DNA of 64,000 nt, from the NCBI RefSeq assembly GCF_018143015.1, contig NC_054746.1:12391532-12455531 (forward strand), in the 5' to 3' direction. Source of the DNA: Lytechinus variegatus (Eukaryota; Echinodermata; Echinoidea; Temnopleuroida; Toxopneustidae). The notes below the pieces were generated by a model, which worked only from the letters and a program-made list of their open reading frames with translations, was not told where the DNA came from and made no database searches. Every line of letters starts with the position of its first letter. Position 1 is the first letter of the stretch. Of the stretch, positions 13,493 through 63,139 are shown piece after piece. Made by a program: the position numbers and the translations under genes.

Positions 13493-14200
13493 GGTTTTGG
13501 CGGGAAACGAGTGGGCGTCGTATGCGGACGTGGTGAGTAGACGGCGGCGTGAGTTACGGCGGCGTGTGTGTGTGTCGGCGGTGTGTACATCAATGGTGGC
13601 GTTCTGTGCGTGTTGGTCGGCGGACTCGTCGGGTGAGCTTCGGCGGGAGTGAGTGGGTGGCCTGGTGTACGGATGAGGTGTTGGGTCGTCGGCGGAGGTT
13701 GTAGCGAGGTGTCGGTGGCGGTGGTTTGTGTGTCGGCGGAGTCCCTGGTTGAGTTGGTGATGCAATCAGACTGCTGTGTTGGGTAGGAGGGCTCGGTGGA
13801 GTGACGGTGGACGGCTGGTTGTTTGTGGATTGGTTAGAAGTTTGGTGGTTTTGGCGGGAAACGAGTGGGCGTCGTATGCGGACGTGGTGAGTAGACGGCG
13901 GCGTGAGTTACGGCGGCGTGTGTGTGTGTCGGCGGTGTGTACATCAATGGTGGCGTTCTGTGCGTGTTGGTCGGCGGACTCGTCGGGTGAGCTTCGGCGG
14001 GAGTGAGTGGGTGGCCTGGTGTACGGATGAGGTGTTGGGTCGTCGGCGGAGGTTGTAGCGAGGTGTCGGTGGCGGTGGTGTGTGTGTCGGCGGAGTCCCT
14101 GGTTGAGTTGGTGATGCAATCAGACTGCTGTGTTGGGTAGGAGGGCTCGGTGGAGTGACGGTGGACGGCTGGTTGTTTGTGGATTGGTTAGAAGTTTGGT
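13493..14200 (-). repeat. Two tandem 354-bp units inside the Penelope-like element
   Basis: The word GGTTTTGGCGGGAAACGAGT occurs at 13493 and 13847, exactly 354 bases apart, and the following ~260 bases are almost identical. The period equals 118 codons, so the minus-strand frame is preserved across copies (two nearly identical open frames start MHHQLNQGLRRHT). The few differences suggest a recent duplication. Confidence 0.8.
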
Positions 14201-14535
14201 GGTGACGTAGGATTGGGTGCCAGATGCTGTTGATGTGGAGGCCAGGGTCTTGAGGCACAGTGTTGTGTTGATGTATCTCAATGGCTTCCCTGACCCTTCT
14301 GGTATTCCAGTGCCGGATGTTGGTGATTAGGTGGCTCCTTTCCCATTCTATGCGGTGATTCTCTTGTTGTGCGTGCTTGACGATGGCGGATCGTCCAAAG
14401 AGTGTAAATGTAACAACCATAGGTGTTGTAATAACACCTATAGGTTTAAAACTAACACAACCAATTTAACAACGGTGTAAAATAACTGGTGTGGTCCTCT
14501 ATCTACATCGGTTAACACCACAGTTTTTGCTGTGT

Positions 14536-52860: not shown

Positions 52861-54115
52861 ATCTTTGTCTTCTTTGCTTGTCAACTTCTTTCTGACGACA
52901 ACCCCTAAACGAAATCCCCAGCACCCCCTTTTAAAAACTTATTCCGAGGGCCCGGGTAGTAGTAGTAATAGCATTACTATTAGTATTACCATTATTTTTA
53001 TTTATTATCCATCTATCTATTCTTTCCGGGGGGGTGATATCATTATTGCGCAAGAACTCGTGCATTACCTTGACGAACGAGAGCTTATTGGCTAACCAAC
53101 GCAGAAATAATTTAATGCAACTATTACCATAAATGCTATGTCATTCTCGTATTATGTATCACTTATTTAGGTTTTTGATAAATGACCGAAATGATACAAT
53201 TAAACGGCAATTATATTGGTCTTTACTGTATTTAAATTTATTCATTCGACAGATATCATAATTGCATTATCGATTTCCAAACAATCTTTATTATTTACAT
53301 TTATATTTTTTTCGACAGATAGATTTAATTGAATCATCGATTTCAATACAATGTTTGTTAATTGGTGTTTGTAAGAATCAATATATTTCAGCTGCCTGAG
53401 CATACCTTGTTTTATCAATACCGTGCCTACCATACATAGAAAAAAATATTGAATCTAAGTTGATTGAAAAAAAATGGATGGAGATTTCTTCTATATTTGG
53501 ATAAGAAGTAGGGATAAAGTAGCTTTCACATCTGGACTTTTTTTTATACCAAGTAATGAAATTCAAGATTTTATTCCCTGATGCCAAGAAAGCATTGTCA
53601 TGAAGTTTAATAAAGGACAAACCTTTGTAAAAGAACAGATTTTTCATACCAAGGATTAGAATATGATAGAATTGGCTTACCTTAATTACACCTGTATGCT
53701 GACTCAAACATTCACTTATGACGGTATTATTTGCAGGTTTGTAAGCTGTCACATCTGTGGTCCGTTTAAAAAAAGCGTTGCAAGTAAAAAGGTAACGTTG
53801 CCATTATGGCTACTACCATCAACAGACAATCATAATCAATGTTTCCTTGGTAGTAACCATTATGTAAAAGTATTACTATGACATTACCAGTGTGACCAAC
53901 TTGAAGTCTCCATAATAATGCATAGTCTGTGATTACAACTTAAAAAACAAACAAAAAAACATTTAAAAGTCGTATCTTTCTTATCGTTCTTCCATACTGT
54001 TCAAATTTTCAGCTATTTGTCTAATTTGTCCTTTCCTTTAAACCAAAATTTTCATGTGGGTTGTATCCCCCTCTAGATAACATTGTGTTATAAATAAATG
54101 GCTTGCCATTAGCTA
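52861..54115. other. Non-repeat spacer with an unexplained 124-codon frame
   Basis: The minus-strand frame at 53378-53752 (MTAYKPANNTVISECLSQHT...) is the longest in the window that is not inside a visible repeat. It has Ile/Phe/Lys/Ser-rich AT-driven composition, no signal peptide, domain or promoter, and I recognise no relative. I see nothing else here. Confidence 0.3.
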
Positions 54116-54252
54116 CGGATCCCTTAAAGTGCCATCGACTTGTAGACATGGCGAGATAATTATATCTTGTCAAGTCGACATAATTATGTTATCATATGAT
54201 ACATTATCTCGCCAAGACAACACATTTCGCCAAGTTGACTAACACCTGCCTG

Positions 54253-55281
54253 CAGTGGCGTACCGTGGGTCACCGCATGGGGGGGGGCATCAGCAAACAT
54301 TTTGAGTCAGCGCTCGAAGCACGCTCAGTTGCCAGATATACTGACCTTATAGATACATTTGAAGGACAGTACCTTTAAACGGATGTGTATCTCACTGATC
54401 ACATATAATGCGAGCCCGAAGCGCGAGCTGAAATTTCTTGATATTCCGACCGAAAAGGGACATTATAAGCAAATTCATGTAATAACGATACGTACCTGTC
54501 TCGCTAAACAAACAATGCGAGCGCGAAGTAAGAGCTGAAATTCTTTTATTTATTGACCCCAAACAGGGAATCCATTAGGAATCCATTAAGTGTATACATA
54601 TCTCACCATCTAATGCGAGTGCCAAGCGCTTGCTGATTTTGATAGAATCACATCTAAATACAACCACTTGTATTTATTGCAATCATGATTATCATACGCA
54701 TCTCATTGCGAGTGCGAGCTGAAAGTTTAGGAAATTCAGACCTGAAGAGGGGCATTATAAGACTTGCTTGTAGGAATTCACGAAGACTATACGCATTTCA
54801 CTAACCACTAATGATGCGAGCGCGAAGTACTGAAATTTTTGATAATAAGATCAGAAAAAGGAACATTTTAAAGACTAATTTTAGGAATTCATGAAGAGCA
54901 GACATATCTCACCAATCCACTATGCGAACGTAAACACGGACAGGAACCTTAAAATGGGGCAATCACTTTAAGTAGTCATGAAAAAGAAGCATATGCCACT
55001 ACATAAAACAATAATTCGAAGTGAGAGGAAATATAATTATTTTATAAAACGGGAGGTTTTAGAACAACAGGATTATATATCTCGTCAAATAGAAAATGCG
55101 AGCACCAGGAACAATAGACATAGGCCCTGAACAAATTATGTTTCATAAAGTTACGAATTTTTTAAAAAGTAATATAACATAACATAATTATAATATAACA
55201 TTTTAACGAACAATAATCTCGTCTTTCCCACTACGTTTTTTCCCCTTTCCCCTCCATTTCTCCGTTTCCCCTGTTTTTTTT
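54253..55281. mobile_element. Element with GCGAGCGCGAAG tandem repeats nested in the foldback
   Basis: It begins CAGTGGCGTACCGTGGGTCA and ends in TTTTTTTT, flanked by GCCTG on both sides (54248-54252, 55282-55286). The interior has diverged ~100-110-base units, each with TGCGAGCGCGAAG-type and GCTGAAATTTTTGAT words (about 54410, 54516, 54616, 54706, 54816). Its insertion interrupts the left arm of the foldback. Confidence 0.6.
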
Positions 55282-55371
55282 GCCTGCCTGTATATCATCT
55301 TGGCGAGATAACGTATCTCGCCAGGTTGACATTTACATTTTTGTATGTCATGTTGACACACACTTGTTTAC

Positions 55372-55856
55372 GGAGCCTTTAAAATGCCATCGACTTGACG
55401 ACTTGGCGAGATACTTTATCTGGCCATGTCGACATAATAACCTTATTACGTCGACATGGCGAGATACATTATTTCGCCAATTTGACTTATAGAAATGTAT
55501 ATGTCGACAAGGTGAGATACGTTATCTTGCCAAGTTGACTTACAAAACATTATATGTCAACATGGAGAGATGTGAAGTGTCAAAGGCCCGTCGAGAGTCC
55601 AAATATCTCGCCAAGTTGACATATAACTTTTTATAAGTCGACTTGGCTAGATCAAATATCTCGCCATGTTGACATATAACTTTTTATAAGTCAACTTGGC
55701 AAGATAATGTTTCTCATCGTGTCGACATATACATTTCTATAAGTCGACTTGGCGAGATGACGTATTTCGCAAGGTCGACATAATAAGGTTATTATGTCGA
55801 CATGGAAGATAAAGTATCTCGCCAAGTCGTCAAGTCGATGGCACTTAAAAGGCTCC
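55372..55856. repeat. 485-bp near-complete inverted repeat
   Basis: GGAGCCTTTAAAATGCCATC at the left pairs with the complement of the right end (GATGGCACTTAAAAGGCTCC), and the arms stay alike for about 200 bases each. Within each arm the TCGACTTGGCGAGATA word alternates in orientation, so hairpins exist inside the hairpin. The only unique part is about 60 bases near 55570-55600. Confidence 0.8.
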
Positions 55857-55948
55857 ATACTTTTTCGTATGTCGACTTAAGAATATATAATTTCTCACCA
55901 AGGTGACATAAAACTTTTGATAATTATGTCGACTTGGTGAGATAAATA

Positions 55949-57238
55949 CGGAAGCTTAAAAGTGCCCCAAGAAGCCGAGATAATTTAAGACGAGAAAAAA
56001 AGTCAAGAAGACGAGAAAAAGAGTCAAGAAGACAAAAAGAAGAGGCAAAGAAGACAAAAAGGCAAAATCCTGGATCTCGTCAAGTCGACTTCCGAAGGAC
56101 AAGAAGACAAGATCCCAGAACTCATCAAGTCGACTTCGTCAGGACGAGAAGACAAGATCCTGGATTTCGTCAAGTCGACTTCTGTAGGACGAGAAGACAA
56201 AAAGACAAGATCCTGGATCTCGGCAAGTGGACTTCCGAAGGACGAGAAGACAAAAGACAAGATCCCGGATCTCGTCAAGTCGACTTCTGTAGGACGAGAA
56301 AAAAAAAAGATAAGATCCTCATTCTCGTCAAGTCGTCTTCGTTAGGACGGGAAGTCAAGAAGACGTGCATGATCCAGGATGTCGTCAATTCGACTTACTT
56401 AGGATGAGAAGACAAGAAGACAAGATCCTCAATCTCATCAAGTCGGCTTTGTCAGGACGACAAAGCTTCTCTCCGCCGCCCCTGCAAAGAAACACAAGAA
56501 TTATAGGTTCATAGGCTCTAAGCATATAATGTTTCATAAAGTTACGAAAAAAATATTCATGCAATATGATATACATATATATATACGTTTCTCTTTCTTT
56601 CTCTCCTTTCCCCCGTTTTTGACCTTGTTCACACAGAAATGAAAAAGTGTTGGAAATATAAGAGAACTTCAGAAATATTGACAACCAAAAAATTAAACGA
56701 AACGACTGAATTATAGTCTATCGCGAATAGCCATCTTGGCACCAATAAGTTGATTTGCCGAGTTTTCACAACTCGTCATTTTGTTTTCTCGTCCTGATAA
56801 AGTCGATTTGTCGAGATTGAGAATCTTGTCTTCTTGTCTTCTCGTTTTGAATAAGTCGACTTAACGATATCCTGGATCACGTCCCCTTGACTTCCCGTCC
56901 TGACGAAGACGACTTGACACGACTTGACGAGATTGAGGACCTTCTCTTCTCGTCCCAAATAAGTCGACTTGACGAGATAGAGGATCTTGTCTTCCTGTCT
57001 TCTCATCCTAAATAAGTCGATTTGATCAGATTCTGGATCTCGCCTTCTACTGTTCTTGTCCTAGTTAAGTCGACTTGACGAGATTGAGGATCTTGTCTTC
57101 TTATCTTCTCATCCTAAATAAGTCAACTTATTGAGATTGAGGATCTCGTCTTCTTGTCTTCTTTCCTCGTCTTCTTGTAATCTTGACTCTTTTTCTCGTC
57201 TTCTCAACTCGTCTTCTGGGGGCACGTCTAAGCTTCCG
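55949..57238. mobile_element. Inner foldback element with tandem-repeat arms and unique middle
   Basis: CGGAAGCTTAAAAGTGCCCC (55949) and GGGGCACGTCTAAGCTTCCG (to 57238) are inverted ends. The left arm (about 55975-56460) is a tandem array of AAGATCCTGGATCTCGTCAAGTCGACTTC-like units of about 45-65 bases; the right arm (about 56780-57230) is the same array inverted. The middle, about 56470-56770, is unique. The AGAAG/CTTCT-rich frames on either strand are by-products. Confidence 0.75.
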
Positions 57239-57341
57239 TAGATAAAGTATCTCGCCAAGTTGACATAATACATTATTATGTCGACTTGGCGAGATGAATT
57301 ATCTCGCAATTTCTACAAGTCGATGACATTTCAGAGCTTCC

Positions 57342-57560
57342 TTAATCAACGTCGCTGTACGTTGAATGGTAACGAAACACGGAAACATCCAATATTGATG
57401 AAAAAGCTAGTGACAGATGCCATTCCTAATTTATCAGATATTATTTTCTTTATGTTGTTATCTAATAAAGGGCAAAAAACGCATTGATTTATTGATATAA
57501 TCAAACGAAAAACATCTGGCGTTTAAAGTACATGTAATAATTCATTCCGCAAGACATCGA
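57342..57560. other. Non-coding spacer
   Basis: No feature recognised. Confidence 0.4.
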
Positions 57561-61577: not shown

Positions 61578-63139
61578 GTAAGCTTTGATTTCATCTAGGC
61601 CTACCTCTTAATTTTTCTCTCTTCTTCTGTTTTAGTCATTTATTTTATTCAAGGAAGGGACACGATAGGATACAAAGATCATGATATAGATTACACTAAA
61701 TGAAAAATAAACTAATATAATTCAAATGCAATGTATAATATGTATTCTCGTCAACTGAACTTAAGACTAAGAGAATTCTGCCGGCACAGACCCTTATTAT
61801 TATTTTTTATAGGTAGGTCTTCGCACAAAGACTAGCACATATAAAACTTGCTAAACGAGAGTGACTTCAAATACACTCCTCATTGTAGGCTTTGCATTCA
61901 GACCAATTAACTGGAGGGAATGTTTTGCACAGAGTAGTAAGATCCATGATTGTCCTAAAGTGGACATTTACGACGGTTTCGGCCGAATGAAGACAAATGG
62001 ATTAAAAATGAAAATAAGAGAATTATCAGGCGAGAGTGGAATATATAAATAGAGGAGAAGAAAGTGTTATAATATGAGATAAGGCAAGAGTTATTAATTA
62101 AAAGGACTGCAAACGAGATGAGATACGATGGCTATATAGGAATAGGAGAAGAGCAAATGAGGTCAAGAGTAGGTGTGGGAGGAGTCTCTACAGTGATGAG
62201 TAGGTGGGATAAGGAGTAATAGTGGTAAAGAGTAGAAAAGATAAGGAGTCTCGGTGGCGAAGAGTTATTGATATTAGGAGTCTCAGCGACGAAGAGTAGA
62301 TGAGAAAAGGGTTCTCGGTAGGGAAGGGAAGGCGAGATAAGGAATCTCGGTGACGAAGGATACATGAGAATATAAAGGGGTCTTGGCGGCAAAGAACAAG
62401 AGAGATAAAGAGTCTTGGTGGTGAAGAGTTGATGAGATATTAAAGGAGTCGCAGCTCTCCATTATGATGCAACTTGCATTTTTAAAGGAATGGTGTGTTG
62501 TAGAGAGCGGCCGAATCGTCACTACCAAAACTCCCTCACGAGATGAGCCTCGATGACGAAGAGAAAGTGAGAAAATGATTCTCGGTGGCAAGGAGAAGAA
62601 GAGATAAGGAGCCTGGCGGCGAAGGATAGATAGGATGAGGGGTGTTGGTGACGAAGAATAGATGAGATAAAGAATCTCGTTGGCGAAGGGTAGATGAGAT
62701 GAGGGGTGTCGGTGACAAAGAGTAGACGAGAAGAGGAATCTCGTTGACGAAGAGTAGATGAGATGACGGGTGGCGATGACGGAAGAGTAGATGAGACAAG
62801 GTGTCTCGGCAAGATAATAAGGAATCAGTCAACCTCCTTCCCCGCCCCATGCATGTCATCAAAATTAAAGTTGTGATTAAAGAACAGATGCATTCTTTGT
62901 ATTTGACTTCCCCAGTGCAATAACGCTTCAGTCACAACTGTGAAACCGACTCCAAACCGACAAAGTTATTACATTATTACCGATGACAGGCATTCGGTCA
63001 TTTGGAATCTGTTTCATTGATGTGACCGCTGCATGACGTCATCTAATCTATGAATATAAGAATATTCAATACGATATTCTACTTTTAAGAAGCAAGTAAA
63101 CATCTTGATGAACTTTCATTTCTTTTGTTATAATTATAG
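61578..63139 (+). other. Astacin intron 2
   Basis: A 1.56-kb phase-1 intron from GTAAGC to TTATAATTATAG. It contains the purine-rich minisatellite at 62.15-62.82 kb and otherwise plain AT-rich DNA. Confidence 0.75.
62150..62820 (+). repeat. Purine-rich minisatellite in astacin intron 2
   Basis: Units of roughly 40-45 bases built on GAGTCTCGGTGACGAAGAG and TAGATGAGATAAGG are repeated more than ten times with substitutions, with one non-repeat break at about 62445-62530. The plus strand is nearly all A and G with few C, so the five overlapping minus-strand frames of 86-108 codons (Ser/Leu/Pro-rich) are by-products. Confidence 0.8.

Follow-up and report, generated by a model that had tools for sequence, protein, structure and literature searches.

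Sea urchin TU elements are foldback transposons with 8-bp target duplications and ~15-bp tandem repeats in their arms. Further elements of this build are described in other reports: Tetris is apparently non-autonomous and its arms have seeded a satellite (PMC4079207), the arms of Tm1, of the Mutator superfamily, consist of a variable number of 13-15-bp units (PMC3169594), and Galileo is placed in the P superfamily. For the little-studied cut-and-paste superfamily IS3EU, published accounts describe fungal families with 6-bp duplications, terminal inverted repeats of >30 bp and ends of the form TAYGG..CCRTA (PMC12730594), and complete families that always have TA..TA ends and usually 6-bp duplications (PMC10045372); Repbase is stated there to hold 45 IS3EU families, 17 of them autonomous, and non-autonomous ones are known (PMC10045372). 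Among the papers listed in a literature search, judged by their titles and abstract openings, none deals with a foldback IS3EU; PMC8268682 mentions both foldback and IS3EU, in unrelated places. The term 'TU elements' is absent from the ten papers listed in a further search.

The DNA analysed here is a stretch of 64,000 nucleotides from Lytechinus variegatus (the window), situated on contig 7 of a genome that comprises 869.6 Mb in 33 contigs. The original prediction, made from the letters of the window, had placed at least three nested inverted-repeat elements between positions 54116 and 57341. Self-comparison and repeat finding confirmed that three such elements exist, with ends no more than 2-3 bases from all six predicted coordinates. 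The outer pair (54116/57341) is not a single 3.2-kb foldback, as had been proposed: both arms are parts of X, a palindrome of 396 bp that runs from 54114 to 57344 (with an extra TA on each side of the predicted ends) and is split by three insertions, A, B and C, the first of them missing from the prediction. The locus is most probably a small, old, hairpin-shaped element X that was later hit by two relatives, its sibling B and its cousin C, and by the unrelated A. We are fairly confident that X, B and C are three non-autonomous IS3EU-type DNA transposons of one foldback clan, and that A is a hAT-like element. The features of the locus are as follows.

54108-54113, no strand: left target duplication of X, ATTAGC (right copy ATCAAC at 57345-57350, 4/6 match)
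54114-54252, + strand: X piece 1, left end TACGGATCCCTTAAAGTGCCATCGACTTG, finishing with the 8-base left duplication of A (54245-54252)
54245-54252 and 55283-55290: target duplication of A, CCTGCCTG on both sides, 8/8
54253-55282, + strand: A, a truncated hAT-like non-autonomous element inside X, starting CAGTGGCG; 3' terminal repeat missing
55291-55368, + strand: X piece 2, finishing with the 6-base left duplication of B (CTTGTT)
55369-55859, + strand: B, a 491-bp palindromic foldback, TACGGAGCC...GGCTCCATA
55399-55571, + strand: left arm of B, 53-bp tandem units
55604-55829, + strand: right arm of B, 53-bp tandem units
55860-55865: right target duplication of B, CTTTTT, against CTTGTT on the left, 5/6 match
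55866-55946, + strand: X piece 3, finishing with the 6-base left duplication of C (GATAAA)
55941-55946 and 57241-57246: target duplication of C, GATAAA, perfect, 6/6
55947-57240, + strand: C, a 1294-bp foldback, TACGGAAGCTTAAAAGTGCCC...GGGCACGTCTAAGCTTCCGTA
56049-56449, + strand: left arm of C, ~7.8 units of 53 bp, purine-rich
56510-56620, + strand: middle of C, with patches that resemble the tail of the hAT family to which A belongs
56772-57162, - strand: right arm of C, ~7.3 units of 53 bp, inverted relative to the left arm
57247-57344, + strand: X piece 4, to the right end ...GAGCTTCCTTA

The uninterrupted X was joined from 54114-54252, 55291-55368, 55866-55946 and 57247-57344, after removal of the three insertions and of one duplication copy for each, with its ends set by the terminal TAY/RTA. 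In forced global alignments of the 396-bp join with 22 B-type copies (gaps excluded, better orientation), the six best show 82-83% identity. An earlier join of 408 bp, made while TA was taken as the target duplication, gave a local alignment to the copy L031 over positions 1-397 (66.5% identity), to L030 over 1-383 and to B over 1-361; these matches span all three junctions (137, 217 and 306). The C junction in the 396-bp join reads GAGATAAAGTATCTCGCCAAG, near the usual form of the 53-bp unit. The duplication flanking X is weak, its 4/6 match being expected by chance in ~4% of cases by arithmetic. In the sequence of events that we propose, X (396 bp) would have inserted first, and A, B and C would then have entered it by ordinary cut-and-paste, each making its own duplication, of 8, 6 and 6 bp. 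Read in this way, the locus shows how nested insertions can mimic one large foldback.

Element A is a member of a dispersed genome family. All seven of the other A-type copies read have 8-bp duplications, each matching at no fewer than 7 of 8 positions. hAT elements have 8-bp duplications and CAGTG-type ends, and A shows both, the 3' end of the window copy itself being missing. The middle of C, which carries the A-family patches, is as a whole common to the C-type copies L040, L042 and L064; accordingly, an ancestor of these C copies seems to have carried an A-type fragment between its arms.

The ends of the foldback elements are TAYGGARSYTTTWAARTGCC or near it. This motif departs widely from chance, with 719 matches in the genome at ≤3 mismatches and 0 for its reversed control. 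As a count of insertions 719 is too high: 12 of the 23 listed one-mismatch matches are one variant, and reading of three places with this variant and a fourth with a close relative showed it to sit inside a longer repeat in all four. The end-pattern searches gave 719, 200 and 35 matches, of which 100, 100 and 35 were listed, and first-look candidates for the B, C and D queries numbered 768, 857 and 1226, with 40 scored for each. The word predicted to be shared by the elements, TCGACTTGGCGAGATA, is absent from the window in its exact form, and it is its variants that are present, the 11-base core TTGGCGAGATA occurring six times; the predicted common end GTGCCATCGACTTG occurs in exact form once in X, once in B and not at all in C.

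For the B subfamily, 30 loci were fetched; without three repeat views they make 27 distinct places, window copy included, and at 26 of these both ends could be located. Among these best matches, in which well-preserved copies are over-represented, 19 of 26 have 6-bp duplications matching at 5 or 6 of 6 positions (10 perfectly), while only 0.77% of re-paired flanks reach 5/6. The match between the flanks extends exactly six bases beyond the TA (mean 4.62/6, compared with 1.59 for re-paired flanks); at widths of 4, 5 and 7-10 the agreement exceeds that of re-paired flanks by little, if at all. A convincing duplication is lacking in seven of the 26 copies (L015, L016, L017, L018, L020, L035 and L038); in L017 and L035 the ends seem to have been set at wrong positions. 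Scanning of 37 loci gave six further end pairs; L041, L074, L079 (outer end) and L080 match at 6/6, and the other two fail, with 3 (L050) and 1 (L056) of 6. A single end was seen in L075, and L077 and L078 have several kb in common. The genome search for copies with the same ends and target duplications thus found dispersed, discrete copies, so that the locus is not unique and the prediction of one mobile family is upheld.

The arms of B and C are tandem arrays with a main period of 53 bp, in line with the 45-65-base units noted from the letters alone. The B, C and D subfamilies have ~20 bp of end in common and arms built of this unit. Among lags of 20-129, 53 bp ranked highest in the autocorrelation of 9 of 10 B, C and D elements, with a slight lead in L080, and ranked second in C_L041. 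By repeat finder there are about 3-4 units per arm in B, 7-8 in C and 6.5-9.5 in D, and short 21-bp runs occur at both tips of C. The B unit consensus is dyad-symmetric, GTCGAC is present in the unit consensus of B, C and D, and the B and C units share the core ATCTCGYCAAGTYGACTT. Alignment of one B consensus with the unit of the left C arm scored 24, a modest margin over the best of 500 letter-shuffled C units (21); the unit of the right C arm scored higher, 43, the shuffle control covering the left arm only. B folds as a nearly full-length hairpin at -194.9 kcal/mol, compared with -48.1 ± 4.65 kcal/mol for shuffled sequences, none of 100 being as good.

Identity was measured in 22 B copies, leaving out L016, L017, L018 and L035 because their ends are doubtful. 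Its median is 0.846 between the two arms of a single copy and 0.866 between different copies, values near those expected if the copies had spread from an almost perfect palindrome. Several D copies show 92-94% identity in the same orientation and 87-89% in the opposite one, and their arms were therefore already unlike when whole elements were copied; other D copies are equal in this respect (87/87, 89/89), and in the pair L074/L079 all within- and between-copy identities are 0.91-0.92. Expansion of the arms, the second process predicted, is visible in unit numbers that differ between arms and in the D-type copy L079 (contig 1, 58738300-58741700), in which the last 172 bp, including the right end, form a fresh tandem duplication (98% identical), with the 6-bp duplication GCATAC at the outer end copy. 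At L073 (contig 7, 29742200-29746200) a tandem array of 63/70-bp units carries 23 exact, complete C-type ends on one strand; it is a satellite derived from the end of a transposon. All of the 15 best matches to its unit lie within L073, and weaker ones elsewhere often come in 53-bp steps.

More arrays related to the C unit, mostly with 53-bp spacing, lie on contig 1 (92935118-92935844 and 73025250-73025775) and contig 16 (14759660-14760381). Tandem repeats of other kinds occur elsewhere in the window: two 354-bp copies, 99% alike, at 13493-14203, in a G+C-rich stretch with strong strand skew, and minisatellites of 32/64-bp units with a strong purine bias on one strand at 62228-62796.

We infer that the arms grow by duplication and that nesting does not make them. 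Growth would proceed by gain and loss of 53-bp units, through unequal exchange within the palindromic array or slippage during its replication. The clan itself in all likelihood spreads as ordinary non-autonomous cut-and-paste elements. The parts of the model that the data support directly are the ends, the duplications, the agreement of the joined X with family copies, the dispersed copies, the 53-bp units and the copied ends.

A bolder reading, which we consider rather unlikely, is that of an IS3EU lineage whose arms are phased arrays of a 53-bp unit with a GTCGAC core (fully dyad-symmetric in B), which would serve as ladders of putative transposase-binding sites set on one helix face, so that added units or ends would be a gain. 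The DNA helix has 10.5 bp per turn. The reading is based on the closeness of 53 bp to five helical turns and on the constancy of the period in three subfamilies while the remainder of the unit diverged, and the supposed gain on the end duplication in L079 and the 23 exact tandem ends at L073. Alternatively, the 53-bp period may merely have been inherited. If our main reading is right, the clan provides a series for copy-by-copy comparison of foldback-arm growth and of satellite birth from transposon ends.

Our initial reading was of Tc1/mariner-type foldbacks with a TA target duplication and ends CGGAGCC..GGCTCCG. TA is found at both ends of 25 of the 26 B copies, a count that the method favours because the end pattern used contained TA, and the genome has many Tc1/IS630-type transposases (150 DDE_3 matches from 382 candidates, and 70 DDE_1), some with long open frames. 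However, outside the TA the flanks match for exactly six more bases; the TA therefore belongs to the element, a 2-bp TA target duplication is not what is found, and the reading was rejected as very improbable. Moreover, none of the 179 listed ends comes closer than 38 kb to a listed DDE_3 match or closer than 50 kb to a DDE_1 match. An element-owned TA can be mistaken for a Tc1/mariner footprint. As an observation apart, contigs 2, 3, 5 and others hold many Tc1/IS630-type matches, quite a few of them lying in unbroken frames of 300-383 aa, because of which Tc1-like elements are likely to have been active recently in this genome. Scarcely credible is an assembly artefact or a local satellite in place of mobile DNA: palindromes and tandem arrays are error-prone, and L073 is a true local array of ends, but discrete copies lie on many contigs with different flanks, and perfect duplications flank 10 of 26 B copies.

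The original prediction also held that one family makes new foldbacks by insertion into its own arms. Members are indeed inserted into the arms of another member, B and C lying within those of X, and neighbouring B-like matches (C10:624355-625270, C3:48584072-48584727 and C2:51759444-51760050) hint at further nests or pairs, as neighbouring D-like matches (C6:40232907-40235098 and C2:67906942-67908928) hint at nests or tandem pairs. As the source of foldbacks, however, insertion is improbable: once the inserts are taken out, X has the palindromic form of its kin, and copies at other loci are palindromes with nothing nested in them. When the other 26 B places were read together with flanks of 1.5 kb, additional ends (≤3/17 mismatches) appeared only at L018, L024 and L038, where they are weak and without TA, and several D copies derive from copying of whole elements, unlike arms included. 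The proposed kinship with the sea urchin TU foldback family fares no better. The two have in common modular inverted-repeat arms of tandem units and the lack of any coding capacity seen, yet here the duplication is 6 bp rather than 8 bp, a width of 8 showing no excess (2.12, compared with 2.08 for re-paired flanks), and the main arm unit is 53 bp rather than ~15 bp, which makes membership in that family extremely unlikely.

X, B and C are accordingly filed, with a high degree of confidence, as non-autonomous IS3EU elements by footprint and ends, and not yet by enzyme, because TAYGG..CCRTA ends and 6-bp duplications are those reported for IS3EU. The 6-bp duplication was found in 19 of the 26 B copies (at ≥5/6), in the window copy of C and in four of the six further pairs; TAYGG..CCRTA termini occur in B, C and most listed copies, with deviations at the right end of X (TAAGG) and in several copies; and the inverted repeats, being near full-length, exceed 30 bp. 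Movement of X, B and C would be effected in trans by an IS3EU transposase recognising the common ~20-bp end. If this assignment is right, IS3EU is one more transposon superfamily in which the foldback structure has arisen, and here a single repeat period has persisted across three diverged subfamilies.

The observation that no transposase is visible at the locus fits the stretch, in which 17 open frames of 60-153 codons are listed. The Pfam model rva_4 (PF24764), which we take as a marker of the IS3EU transposase, gave 35 matches in about a dozen regions of the genome. These integrase-core matches, on contigs 1, 2, 4, 6, 11 and 18, are in some cases locally clustered and in some interrupted by stops, and they may be host genes or IS3EU relics. 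In 3 kb around one of them (L081) there is an open frame and no family end at ≤4 mismatches. Ends were compared with 21 rva_4, 67 DDE_1 and 150 DDE_3 places, neighbouring rva_4 and DDE_1 rows being merged; in the total of 179 ends every place is counted a single time, except that the L073 array contributes two rows, and most of the 719 ends lie outside this set. None of the 179 has an rva_4 match within 98 kb (nearest, 99 kb), and none of the rva_4, DDE_1 and DDE_3 places lies within 38 kb of any of them. In the part of the genome examined, an element with these ends and an IS3EU transposase was not found.

Two candidates for an autonomous form were set aside. Convergent end pairs ≤20 kb apart number 19 among the 179 listed ends, 18 of them spanning 217-819 bp and one 4,550 bp; the latter (C5:41576479 to 41581029) has unlike flanking 6-mers (GAAACT and TGGTTG) and is probably two elements. 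The end variant CTCTAAAATG proved to mark a B-type element carried within a longer repeat. At L069-L072 (contig 1) a B-type element with the end variant CTCTAAARTGCC lies inside a longer repeat whose main blocks are 85-96% alike between copies, and this element spread as a passenger.

Compared with known systems, X, B and C are like IS3EU in their TAYGG..CCRTA ends, 6-bp duplications and long terminal inverted repeats, and differ in being whole-length palindromes with arms of 53-bp units, a build unmentioned in the accessible parts of PMC12730594 and PMC10045372, and in having no transposase linked to them here. The superfamily is already known, and the 53-bp foldback build seems to be a new variant of it. 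Like the sea urchin TU elements they have modular foldback arms in an animal genome, and they differ from these in duplication and unit length. With Galileo, Tetris and Tm1 they share long, internally repetitive inverted arms; Tetris and Tm1 have target duplications of 8-10 bp, in contrast to the 6 bp found here, and Galileo (P) and Tm1 (Mutator) belong to superfamilies other than IS3EU.
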